From an uncultured Clostridia bacterium (GTDB lineage Bacteria > Bacillota > Clostridia > UMGS1883), in assembly GCA_947589005.1 (NCBI GenBank), contig CANPZO010000002.1, positions 71,713 through 135,712 on the forward strand: 64,000 nucleotides of DNA, read 5' to 3'. Position 1 is the first letter of the stretch. Every line of letters starts with the position of its first letter. Below are positions 10,572 to 32,441 of this stretch, piece after piece. The position numbers were made by a program, and so were the translations under genes. The notes below the pieces were generated by a model. That model saw only the letters and a program-made list of their open reading frames with translations. It searched no databases and had not been told where the DNA came from.

Positions 10572-13043
10572 ATGAAAAAAATGGCGAATACAGCACCTCT
10601 TACTAAGGCTCAGCAGGAGCTTAAGGAAGAAATTTTGGGCAAGCTCAGCCGTCACTACGGCCGCACCCTTGACGATGCCACCAAATCTCACATTTATAAG
10701 GCCACGGCTCTTACCGTCCGTGACACGATAATGAAGCGATGGACCGAATACCGCCGCAGTCAGCGCACCGCTCACCGCAAGGAGCTTTTTTACCTGTCCT
10801 TTGAGTTCCTCATGGGCCGCAGCCTAGGCAACAACCTGCTCAACACCGGCCTTACCGAGGACTATGAGGCCGTGCTCGAGAGCATGGGCTGCTCCCTGTC
10901 CGAGATTGCCGCTCAGGAAAGCGACGCGGGCCTTGGCAACGGCGGCCTTGGCAGGCTTGCCGCGTGCTTCCTCGACTCTCTGTCCGCCCTCAATCTCCCC
11001 GCCTTCGGCTGCTCCATACGTTACGAGTACGGCCTGTTCAGGCAGAAGATAGTTGACGGCCAGCAGGTGGAGACCCCCGACAACTGGCTCAGCGACGGCA
11101 CCGTCTGGGAGATACCCCGCCCCGAGGAACAGCAGATAGTCCGCTTTGGCGGCAATGTGGTCACCGACTACGTGGACGGCAAGATGGTCTTCCGCTACGA
11201 AAACACCACCGACGTTGTCGGCGTGCCCTACGATATGCCTATCGCCGGTTATAACGCCAATCTGGTCAACACCCTCCGCCTTTGGTCCTCACGGGCCAAA
11301 AACGACCTCAACATGGCCTATTTCAGCGGCGGCGACTACGTCAAGGCCGTCGAGGAGAAGGCCCTGGCCGAGGCTCTGTCCAAGGTGCTTTATCCCGAGG
11401 ATAACCATCAGGAGGGCAAGGCCCTGCGTCTGCGCCAGCAGTATTTCTTTGTTTCCTGTACGATACAGTGGATAATTTCCCGCTTTAAGCGTCACCATGC
11501 CGGCGAGGGCCTCGAGCATCTGGCCGACTATATAACCATTCATATCAACGACACCCATCCCGCAATCGGTATTCCCGAGATGATGCGCATCCTCATGGAC
11601 GAGGAGGGCATGGGCTGGGACGAGGCTTGGGACATCACCACCAAGGTATTTGCCTACACCAACCACACCGTTATGGCCGAGGCTCTGGAAAAGTGGCCGG
11701 TGGACCTGTTCAAGCGTCTCCTGCCCAGAATTTGGATGATAGTCGAGGAAATGAACCGCCGCCTCGTGGAAAAGCTCCTCGCGGTCTACGGCGAGGACTG
11801 GGGCAAGATAAACTATATGGCTATCGTGGCCAACAACTACATTTCCATGGCCAATATGTGCCTGGCCTCCTGCTACAAGGTCAACGGCGTCAGCGAGCTG
11901 CACACCGATATCCTTAAAAACGACGTTTTCAAGGACTATTACAACCTTTTCCCCAACAAGTTTGAGGCCATCACCAACGGCATCACCTACCGCCGCTGGC
12001 TTCGGCTTGCAAATCCCGAACTCAGCCGGATAATCAGCGACCGCATAGGCGAAAGCTGGATAACAAAGGCCGAGGAGCTGGAGGGAATTGCCAAGTACGC
12101 CGACGACGAGGAGTTCCAGCGGCAGTTCCGTGAGATGAAAAAAATCAAAAAGCAGGAGCTGGCCGCCTATATCAAGGAGCACAACGGTATCGACGTGGAC
12201 CCCGAGTCCATTTTCGACGTGCAGGTAAAGCGCCTTCACGAGTACAAGCGCCAGCTGCTCAACATACTTCATGTGCTTTACCTCTATGATAAGCTCAAGC
12301 ACGACCCCAATTACGATGTTCTGCCCCACACCTTTATCTTCGGCGCCAAGGCTTCTCCCGGATATAAGCGGGCCAAGCTCATTATCCGCCTTATCAACGA
12401 CGTCGCCAAGCTTGTCAATGACGACCCCGACCTGGGCGGCAAGCTGAAGGTAGTATTTATCGAGAACTACGGCGTGTCTCTGGCCCAGAAGATAATCCCC
12501 GCCGCGGACATCTCCGAGCAGATATCCACCGCCGGTCTTGAGGCCAGCGGCACCGGCAACATGAAGTTCATGGCCAACGGCGCCCTCACCATCGGCACAC
12601 TTGACGGCGCCAACGTGGAGATGCTGCGCTGCGTGGGCGACGACAATATCTTCATTTTCGGCATGACCACTCCCGAGGTCAACCGCGCCCTCCGCTTTGA
12701 GGGTGAGACCAGCCAGGATATCTACGCGTCCTCGCCCGACATTCGCCGGATATTGGATATGCTCATCGACGGCACCATCAATCCCACCGACCACCATCTC
12801 TACTACGACCTGTACCAGTCGCTGGTGTTCGGCGACTACGGCGTGGCCGACAAGTTCATGGTAGTCAGGGACTTCCGGGCCTACTGCGCCATCCACGAGA
12901 AGGCCGACCACCAGTACCGTGACCGGAAGCTCTGGACCAGAAAGGCTATCCTTAACGTGGCCTACAGCGGCTTCTTCTCCAGCGACCGCACCATCGAGGA
13001 ATACAATGACAAAATCTGGCACCTGCCCAAGGTGGAGCGGTAA
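10572..13043 (+). CDS. glgP: Glycogen/maltodextrin phosphorylase
   Basis: Full-length GT35: AACFLDSLSALNLPAFGCSIRYEYGLF; C-terminal PLP region EASGTGNMKFMANGALTIGTLDGANVEM. Confidence 0.97.
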   Translation: MKKMANTAPLTKAQQELKEEILGKLSRHYGRTLDDATKSHIYKATALTVRDTIMKRWTEYRRSQRTAHRKELFYLSFEFLMGRSLGNNLLNTGLTEDYEAVLESMGCSLSEIAAQESDAGLGNGGLGRLAACFLDSLSALNLPAFGCSIRYEYGLFRQKIVDGQQVETPDNWLSDGTVWEIPRPEEQQIVRFGGNVVTDYVDGKMVFRYENTTDVVGVPYDMPIAGYNANLVNTLRLWSSRAKNDLNMAYFSGGDYVKAVEEKALAEALSKVLYPEDNHQEGKALRLRQQYFFVSCTIQWIISRFKRHHAGEGLEHLADYITIHINDTHPAIGIPEMMRILMDEEGMGWDEAWDITTKVFAYTNHTVMAEALEKWPVDLFKRLLPRIWMIVEEMNRRLVEKLLAVYGEDWGKINYMAIVANNYISMANMCLASCYKVNGVSELHTDILKNDVFKDYYNLFPNKFEAITNGITYRRWLRLANPELSRIISDRIGESWITKAEELEGIAKYADDEEFQRQFREMKKIKKQELAAYIKEHNGIDVDPESIFDVQVKRLHEYKRQLLNILHVLYLYDKLKHDPNYDVLPHTFIFGAKASPGYKRAKLIIRLINDVAKLVNDDPDLGGKLKVVFIENYGVSLAQKIIPAADISEQISTAGLEASGTGNMKFMANGALTIGTLDGANVEMLRCVGDDNIFIFGMTTPEVNRALRFEGETSQDIYASSPDIRRILDMLIDGTINPTDHHLYYDLYQSLVFGDYGVADKFMVVRDFRAYCAIHEKADHQYRDRKLWTRKAILNVAYSGFFSSDRTIEEYNDKIWHLPKVER

Positions 13044-13056
13044 TGTCGGTATAAAT

Positions 13057-13172
13057 CCCAACCAACAATACGGCGTCGGGGCAAAGGTTGACTTTGCCCC
13101 GACGTTTTCTTTTGGGAAAACGTCGGAGCGCGCAGCCTTGCCGCTCCTTTTTCCGATATATTGTTTGTTGGG
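13057..13172. repeat. 116-bp structured element with terminal inverted repeats and internal hairpins
   Basis: CCCAACCAACAATA (13057-13070) vs TATTGTTTGTTGGG (13159-13172), 13/14; internal hairpins CGTCGGGGCAAAG-GTTGA-CTTTGCCCCGACG (13074-13104), TTTTC/GAAAA and GGAGCG/CGCTCC. Confidence 0.65.
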
Positions 13173-13284: not shown

Positions 13285-13318
13285 ATAAATGAAAATTGCA
13301 ACAGGAGGTAGATATGAC

Positions 13319-15883
13319 ATGAAAAAAAGTAAATTCGTCGGGCTACTGGGGCTGGCGATTTTTTTTGCGCTGGTTTTGAGCTTACCGCCGCGGGGAGCCT
13401 TTGCCGCCGCCGGCTCCGGGAGCTGCGGCGTGGGGGTGCGTTGGACGTTCAGCGCGGCTACGGGGACGCTGACCATCAGCGGTGACGGTGATATGAACAA
13501 CTATTCCTACTATTCGCCCGCGCCCTGGGCCGATATGTACATGAGCATCAGCCGGGTAAATGTGGGCGAGGGTGTTACCTCGGTGGGTAGCTACGCCTTT
13601 TACGAGGGGCGGTGGGAGAGCGAGTATGTCAACCTTCGCTCGGTGTCCCTGCCCTCCACCCTCAAATCGGTGGGCAGTCACGCCTTTTATGAGTGCTCTG
13701 CCCTTACCGGCGTTGAACTGCCGTCCGAAGTGAGGAAAGTGGGAGATTATGCTTTTGCGGACTGTAAGTCTCTCAGAACCGTCACCGGCGGCGACGGCGT
13801 TACTGAAATGGGAGCTTACGCTTTTAGCGATTGTCAGGCTTTGACGGGCTTCGACCTGCCCGCCGGGCTCACGGCTGTTCCCGAGGGACTGTTCGAGGAG
13901 TGTGCCGGTCTGCGCACAGTTACCTTCCCCGATGGGTTGACATCAATAGGGCCGGGAGCTTTCGAGGACTGCGCCCTTCTGGGCGGAGCCGTCCTGCCCG
14001 AAGGTCTGCGGCTTATCGGCGACAAGGCGTTTGAGGGCTGCGCCTCGCTTAAGGCCGTCAACATTCCGTCCACGGTTACATATCTTGGCAGGGGAGCCTA
14101 CGAGGACTGCACCGGTGTGGAGACAGTGACCTACGACGCCGCCGACGCGGAGGTGTCCGCATACTATTACGGCGAGTATGAGCCTCCCTTTGCCGAGTGC
14201 CGGGGAATTACGAGCCTGATAGTCGGCTCGGGCGTAAAGAAAATCAAGGCCTATACCTTTGCCGGTCTGCGGAGCCTTGCCTCCGTTACTCTTGGCGACG
14301 GCGTCGGCGAGATAGGCGAGCGGGCCTTTTACGGCGATTCCCTCATACGGGACGTGTATTACGACGGCTCGACGGCGGATTGGGGCAGGATAAGAATTGC
14401 CTCCGGCAACGAGAGCCTTTCAAGGGCTCAGATACATTATGGCGGCAGCGGCAGCAGCGGCCCCGTTGACCCCGTTGACCCCGTTGACCCTGTTGACCCC
14501 GTTGACCCCGTTGACCCCACGGCCGCAAAGATAACGGTGGGCCGCGCCGCCGGCAGACCCGGCGCCAATGTGACCGTACCCGTTACTCTTTCCGGCAATC
14601 CGGGCATCGCCACGTTCAGCCTTCAAATCAACTTCGATAAAACAAAGCTGACTCCTGTTTCGGTCAAAAAGGGACCGGCCCTTACCGCGGGCACCCTTGT
14701 CAGCAACGTGGACCAGGGCGGCGACATGACGCGCTTCGATTTTGTGACCGCCTACTGGTATAATCCCTCCAATATCAGCGACAACGGCACGGTTCTGAAC
14801 CTTGCGTTCAAAGTTAACGAGACCGCGCCCGAGGGAGAGATACCCCTCACCGTGACTTTCAAGCCCGGAGACGCCGCCAACCAGCACATGGAGGATGTGG
14901 AGCTTAACATCACCGGCGGCGCTGTTGATGTACGCACGGCCATCATGGGGGATGTGAACACCGACGGAGAACTGAATTCCAAGGACGGCCTCAAGCTCAG
15001 CCAGTATCTGGCCAAGTGGGATGTGCCCATGAGCGCCTCCGAGCTTTCCGCCGCCGATGTGGAAAAGGACGGAGAGGTCAACTCCAAGGACGGCCTCAAG
15101 CTCAGTCAGTATCTTGCCAAATGGGACGTGTCTATTCAGGAGCTGGCGCTGCCAATGACCGCCGGCGGTCGCATAGCCTTTGCGGTGGACAGCGTTTCCG
15201 CCTCTGCCGGTGGCTACGTGGACGTGCCGGTGCGCATAACGGCCAACACTGGAGTATCGACCTTCAATCTTGAGCTTCACTATGACAGCTCGGCTCTGAC
15301 GCCTGTCTCCATAACAAAGGGAGAGGCCCTGGCTGACGGCAGTCTTACCAGCAATATACAGCAGGGCGGAGGTAATTACGACTTCGTGACGGCGTACTGG
15401 GTAAATCCTTACAATGTTGCCGCCGACGGCGAGGCGTTTACGGTAAGGTTCAAGGTGGCGGAAAACGCTGCCGGCGCTTTGTCCGTGGAGCTGCTTTACC
15501 CCGAAAACGACCCGCCGCTGACTCAGGGCTTTGAGCAGCTCAGGGTGGAAGCCGCCGGCGGCGTAGTGACCGTTGACGGAACCTCCGCTGAGGATCGCGA
15601 CTATACCGTAACTTCCCTCGTCAAGGAGGACATGGGCTCGTCGGTACGCCTCAGGGCCGGCGTGACCAAAAACACCGGCCGCTCCGGTGAGGACGCGGTG
15701 GTCATCGCCATGTACAAGGACGGCGAGCTGTTGGATATGATATTCATGGAAGCGAGCTTCGCTCAGGGTCAGACCGTGACCTTCGGCGGAACGCTGCCGT
15801 CGGCGCCCGGCGCGGTTTACAAGGCTTTTGTCTGGGACGACCTTGACAGCATGACGCCTTTGAGCAACGCGGCGTCCGAGTGA
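13319..15883 (+). CDS. Secreted leucine-rich-repeat (BspA-type) protein with cohesin-dockerin-cohesin architecture
   Basis: LRR_5-type repeats; (PVD)n linker; cohesin-like ITVGRAAGRPGANVTVPVTLSGNPGIATFSLQINFDKTKLTPVSVKKG; dockerin GDVNTDGELNSKDGLKLSQYLAKWDV + DVEKDGEVNSKDGLKLSQYLAKWDV; second cohesin-like IAFAVDSVSASAGGYVDVPVRITANTGVSTFNLELHYDSSALTPVSI. Start chosen downstream of AGGAGG. Confidence 0.85.
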   Translation: MKKSKFVGLLGLAIFFALVLSLPPRGAFAAAGSGSCGVGVRWTFSAATGTLTISGDGDMNNYSYYSPAPWADMYMSISRVNVGEGVTSVGSYAFYEGRWESEYVNLRSVSLPSTLKSVGSHAFYECSALTGVELPSEVRKVGDYAFADCKSLRTVTGGDGVTEMGAYAFSDCQALTGFDLPAGLTAVPEGLFEECAGLRTVTFPDGLTSIGPGAFEDCALLGGAVLPEGLRLIGDKAFEGCASLKAVNIPSTVTYLGRGAYEDCTGVETVTYDAADAEVSAYYYGEYEPPFAECRGITSLIVGSGVKKIKAYTFAGLRSLASVTLGDGVGEIGERAFYGDSLIRDVYYDGSTADWGRIRIASGNESLSRAQIHYGGSGSSGPVDPVDPVDPVDPVDPVDPTAAKITVGRAAGRPGANVTVPVTLSGNPGIATFSLQINFDKTKLTPVSVKKGPALTAGTLVSNVDQGGDMTRFDFVTAYWYNPSNISDNGTVLNLAFKVNETAPEGEIPLTVTFKPGDAANQHMEDVELNITGGAVDVRTAIMGDVNTDGELNSKDGLKLSQYLAKWDVPMSASELSAADVEKDGEVNSKDGLKLSQYLAKWDVSIQELALPMTAGGRIAFAVDSVSASAGGYVDVPVRITANTGVSTFNLELHYDSSALTPVSITKGEALADGSLTSNIQQGGGNYDFVTAYWVNPYNVAADGEAFTVRFKVAENAAGALSVELLYPENDPPLTQGFEQLRVEAAGGVVTVDGTSAEDRDYTVTSLVKEDMGSSVRLRAGVTKNTGRSGEDAVVIAMYKDGELLDMIFMEASFAQGQTVTFGGTLPSAPGAVYKAFVWDDLDSMTPLSNAASE
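14462..14518 (+). repeat. 9-bp tandem repeat (CCCGTTGAC)n encoding a PVD linker
   Basis: About six consecutive units with one C/T variation; keeps reading frame. Confidence 0.9.
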
Positions 15884-16240
15884 CGGCTTTTCCGCAGGAA
15901 ATGTCGGAACGGAGACCGGCTTTGCCCCGACGCCGACGAGGTTGATTTTAGTTCGTAGTTCAAGGGCATAAATTAAAAAGAAAAACCGTCTTTTTCTCGT
16001 AAAAAGGCGGTTTTTCCACATCAATTCACAAACTTGATTGTATTGCCGGATTTATCAATACATAAATTTGGCTTAAATAAAGGTTTTCAGCCAAATGGGG
16101 CCCCCGCAAAACGGCGAAGCCGATTTTGTGGGGAAAAGGAGTCACAGCGAGGTGAGCCGAGTTTTGATTTTTTAATTAAAACTCGCGATACCGAGCTTGT
16201 GACGACGCAGGTCTGCGCCATTTTTTTATAGCCCCTCTTA
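15877..16240 (+). repeat. Structured intergenic repeat, copy 1 (~364 bp)
   Basis: Aligns end to end with 30718-31082 at high identity; several hairpins (15981-16015, 16066-16096, 16102-16133, 16159-16184). Confidence 0.92.
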
Positions 16241-28176: not shown

Positions 28177-30288
28177 ATGAAAAAAATTATAAGAAAGTTC
28201 ACGGCCATTCTCACCGCCGCCGTAATGACGACGGCCCTTATCCCCGCCCCGTCGGGGGCCGCCGCCGACGACGCCGCCGAAACAAGGCGGCTCATCGAGC
28301 TGGTGAACGACTACTGGATAAGCCGCAATCAAAATTCCCCCTCCTACGGCTGGGCCGACGCCGCCTACTTTGTGGGCAACACCCAGGCATATCTGGTCAC
28401 CGGCATCGAGTACTACCACGACTTTGCCGTCAAATGGGGCGACAGCAACCACTGGTCCGGCCCGGAGGACAACAACGCCGGCAATTGGGACGCGGGCGGG
28501 GTGTTCCACGCGGACAACCAGACCTGCTTCCAGACCTATTTGGATATGTACTTTTTGGACGGGGACAGGAGCAAGATGGCCCGCCCGCTGGAGGTCATGG
28601 GCTCTCAGATACACACCGCCCCGAGCTACTACTGGACCTGGGACGACGCCATCTTTATGGCCATGCCCGCCATGAGCCGCCTCTACCGAGCCACCGGGGA
28701 CAGGCTTTATGCGGACAAGCTGTGGGAGTACTTCGCCGCCTGTCGGGACGAGCTGTATAACAGTGAGTACCGGTTGTTTTTCCGTGACGCGGGCTATATT
28801 AACGACAATGTTCAAGGACAAAGGAATTTCTGGGCCAGGGGCAACGGCTGGGTGATGGCCGCTTTGGCCCAGACCCTGCGGGATATGCCCGAGGATTGGG
28901 AGCACTACGGCGAAATGCTGGCCATATATCGCGACATGGCCGCCGGCGCCACGGCCTGCATGAAGGACGACGGCGCGGGCAACAAGTACTGGACCCAGTC
29001 CATGCTGCCCAAGTATCCCGTCAGCGCCGCCAACCCCAACGGCTATGAGACCAGCGGCACCGCCTTTATGACATACGCCCTCATGTACGGCATAAACGCC
29101 GGCCTCCTTGACAGCGAGACCTATCTGCCCTACGCCATGGGCGGCATCAATTACCTCAAAAACGTGGCCATACAGCCCAGCGGACGGGTGGGCTACGTTC
29201 AGGAGGTGGGCTCCGCCGCCACAAGCGCCACCGCCCAATCCGCCACCCAGAACTTCGGCGTGGGCGCCACTCTGCTGGCCCTGTGCGAGCTGTACAAATA
29301 TCAGGGCGGGCTCAGTGGCGGCGACCTGCTGCCCTATATCACATGGCGCACCAACAACACCGCCGTTATGCGGCTGGGCGGCGGGAATATGTTCTACGGC
29401 GGAAATCTTACCTCCGTCCCCGCACCCTATGAGGAAAACGGCGAAATATGGCTGCCCCTGCGGGCGATTGCCGAGACCTTCGGCTACACCGTGGAATGGG
29501 ACGACGGCGGCTACGCCTCCGTCGCAAAAGAGGGCCGCGTCCTCACCGTAACCCCCGGCGCTGCGGCCTCAAGGATAAACGGCGTCCGCACCGAGCTGCC
29601 GGCCGCTCCCGTCAACCGCGGCGGGACGATATACCTTTCCACCGGCGCGGCGGCCAAGGTCTTTGACCTGCGCTTCCAAAGGAGCGGCGACCTGCTCTAT
29701 CTTGGCTATAAGCTCAACAATTTCCTGCCCTGCGAGGCTTCGGCGGAGCTGATGCTGGACGGCATACTTTCCTCCGGCACAATCCCCGCCCGTCCGGAAC
29801 AGCCCTCCAAGGACCTCGGGAGCATACTTACCGAGACCTCCGACGGTTACGGCATTGACCTGGGCGACGCGTCGCAGGACTCCTCCCTCATTGACGACGT
29901 CACCGGCGGCAAAACCATTCCGATAAAGCACATATCCGCCGCCAGCGTGCCCGAGCCGGAGAACCCGCCGGAGAACGCCATCGACAGGGATATAAACACT
30001 CGTTACGCCGCCATCGCGTTTAACGCCGTGTTTGACCTGGGCGAGGTGAAGCCCGTTACCGGCGTGGCGCTGTCCTTCTGGCAGTACGACAGCCGCACCA
30101 CCAAATATGAGCTGGCGGTCAGCGCCGACGGCGAAAACTACACCACCGTTTATGACGGCAGCACCACCCTCGGCAGGGAGTTCGACATCCGTCCCGTGAA
30201 CGCGGACATTCGCTATATCCGCGTCATAGGCCACGGCAGCTCCAACGGCACCTGGACCAGTCTGCTGGAGATAGCGCCGTTTGTATAA
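28177..30288 (+). CDS. Secreted GH88/GH105 (unsaturated rhamnogalacturonyl hydrolase-like) with copper-amine-oxidase-N-like and F5/8C domains
   Basis: Signal peptide; SYYWTWDDAIFMAMPAMSRLYRATGD; GYINDNVQGQRNFWARGNGWVMAALAQTL; SGTAFMTYALMYGI; C-terminal discoidin-like AIDRDINTRYAAIAFNAVFDLGEVKPVTGVALSFW. Confidence 0.87.
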   Translation: MKKIIRKFTAILTAAVMTTALIPAPSGAAADDAAETRRLIELVNDYWISRNQNSPSYGWADAAYFVGNTQAYLVTGIEYYHDFAVKWGDSNHWSGPEDNNAGNWDAGGVFHADNQTCFQTYLDMYFLDGDRSKMARPLEVMGSQIHTAPSYYWTWDDAIFMAMPAMSRLYRATGDRLYADKLWEYFAACRDELYNSEYRLFFRDAGYINDNVQGQRNFWARGNGWVMAALAQTLRDMPEDWEHYGEMLAIYRDMAAGATACMKDDGAGNKYWTQSMLPKYPVSAANPNGYETSGTAFMTYALMYGINAGLLDSETYLPYAMGGINYLKNVAIQPSGRVGYVQEVGSAATSATAQSATQNFGVGATLLALCELYKYQGGLSGGDLLPYITWRTNNTAVMRLGGGNMFYGGNLTSVPAPYEENGEIWLPLRAIAETFGYTVEWDDGGYASVAKEGRVLTVTPGAAASRINGVRTELPAAPVNRGGTIYLSTGAAAKVFDLRFQRSGDLLYLGYKLNNFLPCEASAELMLDGILSSGTIPARPEQPSKDLGSILTETSDGYGIDLGDASQDSSLIDDVTGGKTIPIKHISAASVPEPENPPENAIDRDINTRYAAIAFNAVFDLGEVKPVTGVALSFWQYDSRTTKYELAVSADGENYTTVYDGSTTLGREFDIRPVNADIRYIRVIGHGSSNGTWTSLLEIAPFV

Positions 30289-30299
30289 ATTGTAAAAAA

Positions 30300-30366
30300 T
30301 CGGAACAATGGCTTGCGACGATGTTCCTCCTTTTCCACACAAACAACTTCGTTGTTTGTGTGGAGC
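30300..30366 (-). repeat. Fragment of the structured repeat family (copy 4)
   Basis: TTCCTCCTTTTCC-then-hairpin module; perfect 13-bp stem CCACACAAACAAC-TTC-GTTGTTTGTGTGG (30335-30363). Confidence 0.55.
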
Positions 30367-30407
30367 GGTACCGCCTTCGACGGCTTGTTTGTCCATCTCT
30401 GTGAGTC

Positions 30408-30433
30408 GGCGGCTTGAGGGCAAGCCGCCCTAC
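30408..30433 (+). repeat. Short palindromic repeat GGCGGCTTGAGGGCAAGCCGCCCTAC
   Basis: Identical 26-mer at 57643-57668; covarying inverted copy at 30458-30483. Confidence 0.85.
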
Positions 30434-30457
30434 GGTGCACTAACGTAACAAAGTGGC

Positions 30458-30483
30458 GTAGGGCGGGCTGCCCTCAGCCCGCC
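30458..30483 (-). repeat. Short palindromic repeat, inverted copy (GGCGGGCTGAGGGCAGCCCGCCCTAC on minus)
   Basis: Loop GAGGGC and tail CCTAC kept, stem changed with compensation. Confidence 0.85.
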
Positions 30484-30517
30484 GTCCCTCATGACGGACA
30501 AAAAACTCGCAAAAGGT

Positions 30518-30633
30518 TGGTATCGCGTCGTCACAAATCTCGCATCCTTGGCGACAAATTAAAAATTTGTCGCCAGAGTCGCTCGATTGTTCCTCCTTTC
30601 CCCAAAAACCTCATTTTGAGGTTTTTGGGGGCC
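30518..30633 (-). repeat. Diverged inverted partial copy of the structured repeat (copy 3)
   Basis: GCGTCGTCACAA...CTCG-[hairpin]-TCGCT...TCCTTTCCCC-[hairpin]-GGGGGCCC matches the reverse complement of copies 1/2 in order; stems replaced by other perfect stems (30549-30575, 30600-30630). Confidence 0.7.
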
Positions 30634-30717
30634 CTTTTAAGCCGTCGCGAGGGCCGCTTTAGGCCCGAAGCAGGCGACGCGAATGTGACCTTTTGCGAAA
30701 AAGGAGGGGCAAGCCAT

Positions 30718-31082
30718 CGAGTGACGACTTTTCCGCAGAAAATGTCGGAACGGAGACTGGCTTTGCCCCGACGCCGCCGAGTGGTGATTTTCGTTCGTAG
30801 TTCAAGGGCATAAAATAAAAAGGAAAACCGTCTTTTTCTCGTAAAAAGGCGGTTTTTCCACATCAATTCACAAATTTGATTGTATTGCCGACTTTATCAA
30901 TACATAAATTTGGCTTAAATAGAGGTTTTCAGCCAAAATGGGGTCCCCGCAAAACGGCGAAGCCGATTTTGTGGGGAAAAGGAGTCACAGCGAGGTAAGC
31001 CGAGTTTCGATTTTTAAATCGAAACTTGCGATACCGAGCTTGTGACGACGCAGGTCTGTGCGACTTTTTTTACAGCCCCTTA
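30718..31082 (+). repeat. Structured intergenic repeat, copy 2 (~365 bp)
   Basis: High identity to 15877-16240 along the full length. Confidence 0.92.
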
Positions 31083-31196: not shown

Positions 31197-32441
31197 ATGG
31201 ACAGAAGCTTTCATATGGAAAACAGACAGAGTCTTTACAAAAGACTGCCGAAGGGCAGCCTTGCCGTGATATTCAGCGGCTCCGCGCCGCGAAAGACCGC
31301 CGACGAGTACTACCCATTTTTCGCTGACCGCAGCTTTGTTTACCTGACCGGCGTGGAAAAGCAGGGCCTTATCCTGCTGGCCCGCATCGACGAGGGCGGC
31401 GCCAGCGAGACCCTTTACATACTTCCGCCGGACCTTATAGCCGAACGCTGGACCGGTGTCCGCATCAAGGCCGACGAGGTGCTGGAAAAGTCCGGCATAA
31501 GCGATTGCCGCTATGTGGACGATTTCCCCGCCGACCTTAAAAGGCTGGCCGAAAGCGGCAATTATAACAGCCTTTACCTTGACCTCCACAAGCTGACGCC
31601 CGACGAGGCCCCCAGCCCCGCCTACCGTCAGGCCGAGGAGGCGGCGCGGCGCTACCCCTTCCTTCGGATAGGCAATCTCAACCCCCATATCCGCACCCTG
31701 CGTACCATAAAAAAGCCCTGCGAGATAGAGGCCATGCGCAAGGCCGAGACCATAACCGCCGAGGGCATCATGGCCATGATGAAGGCGTCGAAGCCCGGTA
31801 TGTACGAGTATCAGTACAAGGCCGTCTGGGACTATACCCTCGCTCAGCACGGCGTACTCAGCCCCATGTTCCCCTCCATAATCTGCGCGGGGAAGAACAA
31901 TTTCTGCATACATTACTATGACTACCGGGGCCAGGCCCACGACGGCGACATGGTGCTCAACGATGTTGGCGCCGTATGGGACAACGTGGGCACCGACGTT
32001 TCCCGCGGGTGGCCGGTCAACGGCAAATACAGCGAAAAGCAGCGGCTGCTGTACCAATGCGCCTACAATACCTCCAACCATATGTTCGGCATCATAAAGC
32101 CCGGTATGCTAATGAAGGACGTGGACGCCACCGTCCGCAAATTTAACTTCGGCCAGCTCAAGGAGCTGGGCCTCTGCGACCGGCTTGAGGACGTTGGCAA
32201 ATATATCTGGCACGGCGGCGCTCACCATGTGGGCTATGACACCCACGACGTGGTCAACTGCCCGCCGGATATGCCCATCGCGCCGGGCATGGTGTTCTGC
32301 GTGGACGTGGGCATATACTGCGAGGAATGGGGCATAGGCTTCCGCCTGGAGGACAACTGCCTTGTCACCGAAAATGGCTGCGAAAATCTTTCCGTTGCGA
32401 CTCCCCGTTCCATCGAGGACATCGAGGCCGTCATGAGATAA
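31197..32441 (+). CDS. pepP: Xaa-Pro aminopeptidase (M24B)
   Basis: N-terminal AMP_N-like segment; metal-site motifs VLNDVGAVWDNVGTDVSRGWPVNGKYSEKQ, GAHHVGYDTHD, EEWGIGFRLEDNCLVT. Confidence 0.92.
   Translation: MDRSFHMENRQSLYKRLPKGSLAVIFSGSAPRKTADEYYPFFADRSFVYLTGVEKQGLILLARIDEGGASETLYILPPDLIAERWTGVRIKADEVLEKSGISDCRYVDDFPADLKRLAESGNYNSLYLDLHKLTPDEAPSPAYRQAEEAARRYPFLRIGNLNPHIRTLRTIKKPCEIEAMRKAETITAEGIMAMMKASKPGMYEYQYKAVWDYTLAQHGVLSPMFPSIICAGKNNFCIHYYDYRGQAHDGDMVLNDVGAVWDNVGTDVSRGWPVNGKYSEKQRLLYQCAYNTSNHMFGIIKPGMLMKDVDATVRKFNFGQLKELGLCDRLEDVGKYIWHGGAHHVGYDTHDVVNCPPDMPIAPGMVFCVDVGIYCEEWGIGFRLEDNCLVTENGCENLSVATPRSIEDIEAVMR

Follow-up and report, generated by a model that had tools for sequence, protein, structure and literature searches.

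The region upstream of an aminopeptidase gene (31197-32441) of the window, that is, of the whole stretch of 64,000 nucleotides that was analysed, is occupied by a cluster of repeats, among them a structured element that has further copies elsewhere in the window. The features are listed below; bit scores are those of a covariance model, R1, presented further on, and features without a score were read directly from the letters.

30526-30629, minus strand: element core, type B (held-out model match 59.6 bits; fold z = -8.0)
30600-30613 and 30617-30630: type B P1 arms CCCCAAAAACCTCA/TGAGGTTTTTGGGG, a perfect 14 bp
30592-30599: type B linker AAAGGAGG
30549-30560 and 30564-30575: type B P3 arms TGGCGACAAATT/AATTTGTCGCCA, a perfect 12-bp inner stem
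30525-30532: type B GACGACGC end
16102-16207, plus strand: element core, type A copy 1 (103.8 bits; in the training set of the model)
30945-31050, plus strand: element core, type A copy 2 (107 bits; in the training set of the model)
30251-30363, minus strand: truncated type E copy, P1 followed by AAAAGGAGGAACA... (40.1 bits, E 8e-9)
30677-30773, plus strand: type F copy with a short P1 (CCTTTTGCGAAAAAGG) and AGGAGGGGCAAGCC...GGCTTTGCCCCGACG (34.5 bits, E 2e-7)
13074-13172, minus strand: weak divergent copy (in the scan of the window, 19.9 bits and E 0.0016)
30785-30947, plus strand: surrounding repeat module, direct repeat D1, with a second, 93% identical copy at 15943-16105
30407-30484, no strand assigned: adjacent GTAG palindromes, two in inverted orientation and resembling a BIME, repeat D15

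On the minus strand, 30525-30633 runs in the order GGGCCC, P1, GGGGAAAGGAGG, the compound hairpin P2/P3 and TTGTGACGACGC. The double hairpin at 30526-30629 is real, and its scaffold of P1 hairpin, AAAAGGAG linker, P2/P3 hairpin and GACGACG end recurs in the copies at 16102-16207 and 30945-31050. The original prediction had described it as a diverged inverted copy with the scaffold order of the other two and with perfect stems of 12 bp (30549-30575) and 14 bp (30600-30630); the order agrees, and both stems were found again on rereading. The minus strand is predicted to fold into a very stable double hairpin (-51.8 kcal/mol, z = -8.0), and type A copy 2 has values of -57.0 kcal/mol and z = -8.2. 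That the stems are entirely different, as had been proposed, is true of the inner ones, which have been exchanged, whereas P1 retains its CCCC/GGGG foot and outer P2 its ACA/TGT core. The conservation of the linkers had been thought hard to explain by chance, and indeed a genome search with the linker motif, suggested at the time as a check, retrieved TTGTGACGACGC 25 times exactly in 2.1 Mb, and 45 times with at most one mismatch, versus 2 for the reversed pattern. Other loci show the same linker order: 97 distinct copies were collected, including two more of type B (L015 and L026). Within the cluster itself, the type E copy has a degenerate 3' part that merges with the end of the upstream gene, and the GTAG palindromes are a separate repeat family within the same mosaic.

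The 97 copies were drawn from the genome of the window, five others of its genus, further Clostridia matching the pattern TTTGTGGGGAAAAGGAGNNNCAGC (nearly all of them rabbit-gut metagenome assemblies) and a few others. P1, the linker, a P2 helix built as xxxCA-GC...GC-T-TGyyy and the GACGACG end are common to them all, on some 20 different bodies. The arms of P2 occur in 21 distinct combinations, with 77% Watson-Crick pairing versus 60% when partners are reshuffled; for P1 the values are 90% and 75%, and in both cases none of 5000 reshufflings came as high. Types recombine: L042 combines the P1 of type E with the body of type C, and L029 the P1 of type A with the body of type E. In L172 (CANRHW010000056.1, 287-782) P1 and the linker are found three times in tandem, at a spacing of about 235 bp and with changed 3' parts. 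L151 (CANQGQ010000031.1), a contig labelled Alistipes, carries a copy closely matching those of rabbit-gut Clostridia, and its label is likely a binning error. Several copies on contigs C2, C17, C20 and C31 of genome G000 are no more than about 350 bp away from a contig end; the repeat therefore probably breaks these assemblies, and copy numbers are underestimated.

In DNA searches at the level of BLAST the family appears to be specific to the genus. Model R1 was built from 21 aligned copies, type B being left out, and only P1 and outer P2 were modelled as pairs; its E-values are rough, as calibration was short. It recovers the held-out type B copy from end to end (E 6e-14), and the window yields three more relatives, which score 19.9-40 bits. 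The window's own genome has 82 matches at E <= 0.01. Across a sample of the class, matches were obtained in 88 of 392 genomes, belonging to 59 of 223 genera, with between 1 and 33 matches per genome in the 12 genomes examined more deeply. This class-wide spread was revealed by the structure-aware model alone, and missed at the BLAST level because the stems differ. At least 92 of 98 class-wide matches carry the GACG end (columns 189-192), and the other end reads GGG[C/T/A]|CCCC in more than half of the copies. Rfam, at gathering as well as lenient thresholds, returned no family match, only the neighbouring tRNA, tmRNA and pemK. A phage origin was also considered and set aside, with no exact match to the pattern in IMG/VR.

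Since alignment by R1 is biased towards its own structure, the class-wide covariation values are upper bounds: standard pairs fill 95.2% of the paired cells in the 98 distinct matches, each of the 17 modelled pairs has somewhere changed on both sides (299 double-change cells observed versus 85.5 expected, with none of 500 shuffles reaching the observed values), and the covariation score is 0.507, versus about 0.1 or less for slid structures. The model-free counts for P1 and P2 agree. Decayed pairs within types are G.T in 49 cases versus A.C in 52. Class-wide the numbers are 75 versus 19, with 51 of the 75 at a single P1 pair, a conserved wobble (51 G.U, 25 A-U, 12 G-C), and 24 versus 17 once this pair is taken out, so that the class-wide counts single out neither strand as the one that folds. 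The proposal that structure rather than stem sequence is maintained thus holds as a statement on structure. The selection on a resident structured feature that it implied fits less well: stems are nearly identical within a type, the sites are not conserved and decay within types is symmetric, which is why the structure seems to be retained mainly where the element is copied.

Where do the copies lie? With neighbours called simply as the longest open reading frames, those having two clear neighbours sit between convergent genes in 22 cases, codirectional genes in 35 and divergent genes in 8, and they show no preferred orientation relative to genes (17 versus 18). Mobility is deduced from comparisons between species. 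When 27 copies of the window's genome were set against 70 others, just one pair had neighbouring genes that resembled each other closely (71% identity). In front of the aminopeptidase gene, the window's genome has the cluster, G001 has another copy and a tRNA, and G007 an apparent remnant; in four other genomes nothing could be recognised there. Type A cores of the window's genome mostly diverge by 0-0.05 (up to 0.16 in P3) versus about 0.3 in the surrounding module, and this module also occurs without the core at other loci; we take the core to have been copied recently. Comparison of joined flanks revealed no target-site duplication and no exact empty site, and 5-13 target bases were seemingly replaced; as for the terminal inverted repeats expected of MITEs, the ends of the element are not inverted repeats.

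These data bear on the idea that we are dealing with functional or cis-regulatory RNAs, made from the strand GGGG-P1-AAAAGGAG-P2-GACG and held in place by selection on the fold. The strong folds (z -8.0 and -8.2), the covariation, the G.U conserved class-wide at one P1 pair and AAAAGGAGG, a perfect Shine-Dalgarno sequence, would all suit such RNAs. However, orientation relative to genes is even, neighbours are not conserved, decay within types goes equally to G.T and A.C, and the terminator form described below is found on that core strand in none of 127 copies. Sites that are not conserved between species, combined with the lack of an orientation bias, make a sense-strand RNA regulator unlikely, and we regard functional RNAs in general as an unlikely account.

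An independent line of evidence comes from tRNA genes, independent because R1 ends at GACG and contains nothing of a tRNA. Among 128 distinct full copies outside the window's genus, 29 are placed right beside an intact tRNA or tmRNA gene, and all 29 face the 3' end of the gene with their GACG end, at 0 nt from its CCA in 26 cases, 1 nt in two and 3 nt in one; no copy is docked at a tRNA 5' end or by the other side of the element. At the border, GACG|TGG..., the element stops where the complement of the tRNA 3' end starts. The genes concerned are those of Met, Leu, Pro, Gln, Arg, Gly, Ala, Glu, Lys and Val tRNAs and of tmRNA, and five copies of the 97-copy set are docked alike, at 1-3 nt. Another 18 copies carry stretches of 10 nt or more that match a tRNA 3' end (some of the longer ones possibly intact genes missed by ARAGORN), and 81 of the 128 have neither tRNA nor remnant. 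Some of the docked copies could have been inherited vertically in a lineage.

Read along the tRNA strand, the element starts with CGTC, a GC-rich hairpin and directly after it a T-run, the predicted form of an intrinsic terminator, as in L238 after tmRNA (GTCGCCGCAAGC ttcatatc GCTTGCGGCGAC TTTTTT); stems in the examples have 6-13 bp. By a strict test this form is present class-wide in 46 of 127 copies on the tRNA strand, and never on the other strand or in shuffles; the genus set has it in 27 of 97. Docked copies carry it in 24 of 29 cases versus 22 of 98 for the others (Fisher P = 6e-9, copies of the same lineage not being fully independent), and the hairpin seems to be retained mainly at tRNA genes. 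Types A and B of the window lack it, and these copies look like an amplified mosaic form.

Could these be ordinary intrinsic terminators, alike through common function and without any movement? The GACG end has the required form and is enriched beside tRNA and tmRNA genes. Yet P1, the linker and the 5' arm of P2 are conserved though they lie beyond the terminator, 26 of the 29 docked copies stand at precisely 0 nt from CCA, and 81 of 128 copies have no tRNA or remnant. The element is also absent from all 30 tmRNA loci that were chosen regardless of it, where the loci read 3' of CCA had other sequence in its place, which rules out that it is the standard tmRNA terminator. Ordinary terminators are therefore, in our judgement, quite improbable as an explanation.

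We find it probable, with appreciable room for doubt, that the element is a dispersed, non-autonomous mobile element of about 105 bp, similar to REPs and MITEs, which docks against the 3' end of tRNA genes with a predicted terminator of its own. On this reading the element, spread as it is over the bacterial class of the window, would have been amplified in the window's genus into mosaic intergenic arrays. A trans-acting enzyme recognising the feet of the hairpins would move it, and insertion behind a tRNA would be tolerated because the element supplies a replacement terminator, which would be kept at tRNA genes and decay elsewhere. Stems would be exchanged by recombination between copies together with compensatory change, arms remaining matched because only foldable copies would move. 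Another view of the exchanges is that they are a mutational by-product of template switching in hairpins (quasi-palindrome correction) and recombination of modules, without selection on structure. Hybrids such as L042 fit this, as do the arms of P3, which change fastest yet remain matched. By contrast, the linker, the foot of P1 and the GACG end stay constant across 59 genera while the stems turn over; as the full account a by-product is decidedly improbable, and template switching and recombination are probably contributing processes.

A bacterial retro-element must also be mentioned. Seven of the 18 remnant copies keep exactly 18 nt (tRNA-Pro four times, Ala, Leu and tmRNA; positions 59-76 of the tRNA). 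Since a retroviral primer-binding site has this length, and the element stops at the complement of a tRNA 3' end, copies might arise by reverse transcription primed from the CCA of a tRNA. We hold this to be very unlikely; insertion of other mosaic modules into the T loop, as into other hairpin loops, is equally allowed by the remnants. The seven copies (L254, L257, L272, L275:1201-1309, L278, L291 and L321) mostly continue with (A)CAGCCGC...GCGTC-like sequence. In L243, L265, L167 and L176, from rumen-type genomes, an antisense fragment of a tRNA 3' end forms the left flank and a sense fragment the right one, as if insertion had occurred between inverted tRNA ends.

Hardly credible at all is mobilisation by the tyrosine transposase that the genus possesses, a RAYT-like enzyme, the element being then the REP of that system: the genome does have GTAG palindromes and, placed between purM and purN, a gene similar to RAYTs (NCBIfam REP_Tyr_transpos at 54 bits, under the cut-off of 80), and GGAG at the foot of P2 parallels GTAG at the foot of REPs, but RAYT genes carry and are flanked by GTAG palindromes without this element, G001 (86% complete) and G005 have the element and no RAYT match, and G006 has a RAYT and just two weak element matches. 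With such flanks, and with no co-distribution across the genus, a Y1 transposase or RAYT was rejected as the mobiliser, a role for which the RAYT-like gene is a poor candidate. The RAYT-like genes (L062:1279-1788, in the order purM-RAYT-purN, and L064-L076) contain an in-frame GTAG palindrome, for example GTAGGGGAGCGCATTGCGCTCCC, with stems that vary between species; gene-borne and genomic REPs possibly change in concert.

Small palindromic repeats are common, and have been described mostly from Proteobacteria. Firmicutes have dispersed intergenic elements of about 100-150 bp with a predicted structure, such as the bcr1-type repeats of Bacillus cereus and the modular BOX of pneumococcus; neither exact tRNA docking nor a terminator end is known as a feature of bcr1 or BOX. 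The mobile element that we favour works like a REP/BIME or MITE repeat, and it is uncatalogued in Rfam. CGTC REPs are intergenic palindromes that leave CGTC (or TGTC/CCTC) unpaired at one of their ends and measure 20-40 bp, with stems of 8-9 bp, loops of 4-5 nt and mostly a CCA tail; they lie mostly between convergent or codirectional genes, have no linked transposase, had no known mobiliser in 2013, and none are listed for Firmicutes/Clostridia (Di Nocera et al., 2013, PMC3733652). Our element is likewise intergenic, also sits mostly between convergent or codirectional genes and has no linked transposase, and its GACG end is CGTC on the other strand. It differs in its core, which spans about 100-120 nt and comprises P1, P2 and P3, outside the size, stem and loop limits, in the AAAAGGAG linker, the T-run and tRNA docking, and in lacking a CCA-like tail, the CCA belonging to the adjoining tRNA; because size, stems and tail do not fit, we do not file it under CGTC REPs. 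With GTAG REPs, BIMEs and RAYTs it shares a tetranucleotide at the hairpin foot, mosaic arrays and co-changing stems (PMC2817692; PMC3733652), but the foot of its P2 is AAAAGGAG without a GTAG head, the composite unit is far longer, and it does not flank RAYT genes, whose loci carry GTAG palindromes. The terminal inverted repeats and target-site duplications of MITEs are both lacking, whereas the GC-rich hairpin and T-run of intrinsic terminators are present on the tRNA strand. A catalogue of uncurated covarying motifs of the human microbiome, some palindromic and terminator-like, is not known to describe a tRNA-docked repeat in its main text (Fremin and Bhatt, 2021, PMC8040213); catalogues of this type could already hold the motif unnamed.

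A class-wide Clostridia family with a precise CCA-end target and a strand-specific predicted terminator suggests how repeats may insert harmlessly beside essential genes, and makes the mobility of the element testable. The family would also add to many gut genomes an unannotated structured motif, present in up to tens of copies per genome. The weak copy of the window reads on the plus strand CGTCGGGGCAAAG-gttga-CTTTGCCCCGACGTTTTCT, terminator-like in its sequence and just 3' of a phosphorylase gene. It forms part of 13043-13172, where a CGTC-hairpin-TTTTCT terminator placed after that gene is bracketed by CCCAACCAACAATA/TATTGTTTGTTGGGG. Not far from it, 13289-15883 codes for a protein with leucine-rich repeats and cohesin and dockerin domains, which suggests a cellulosome-like system.
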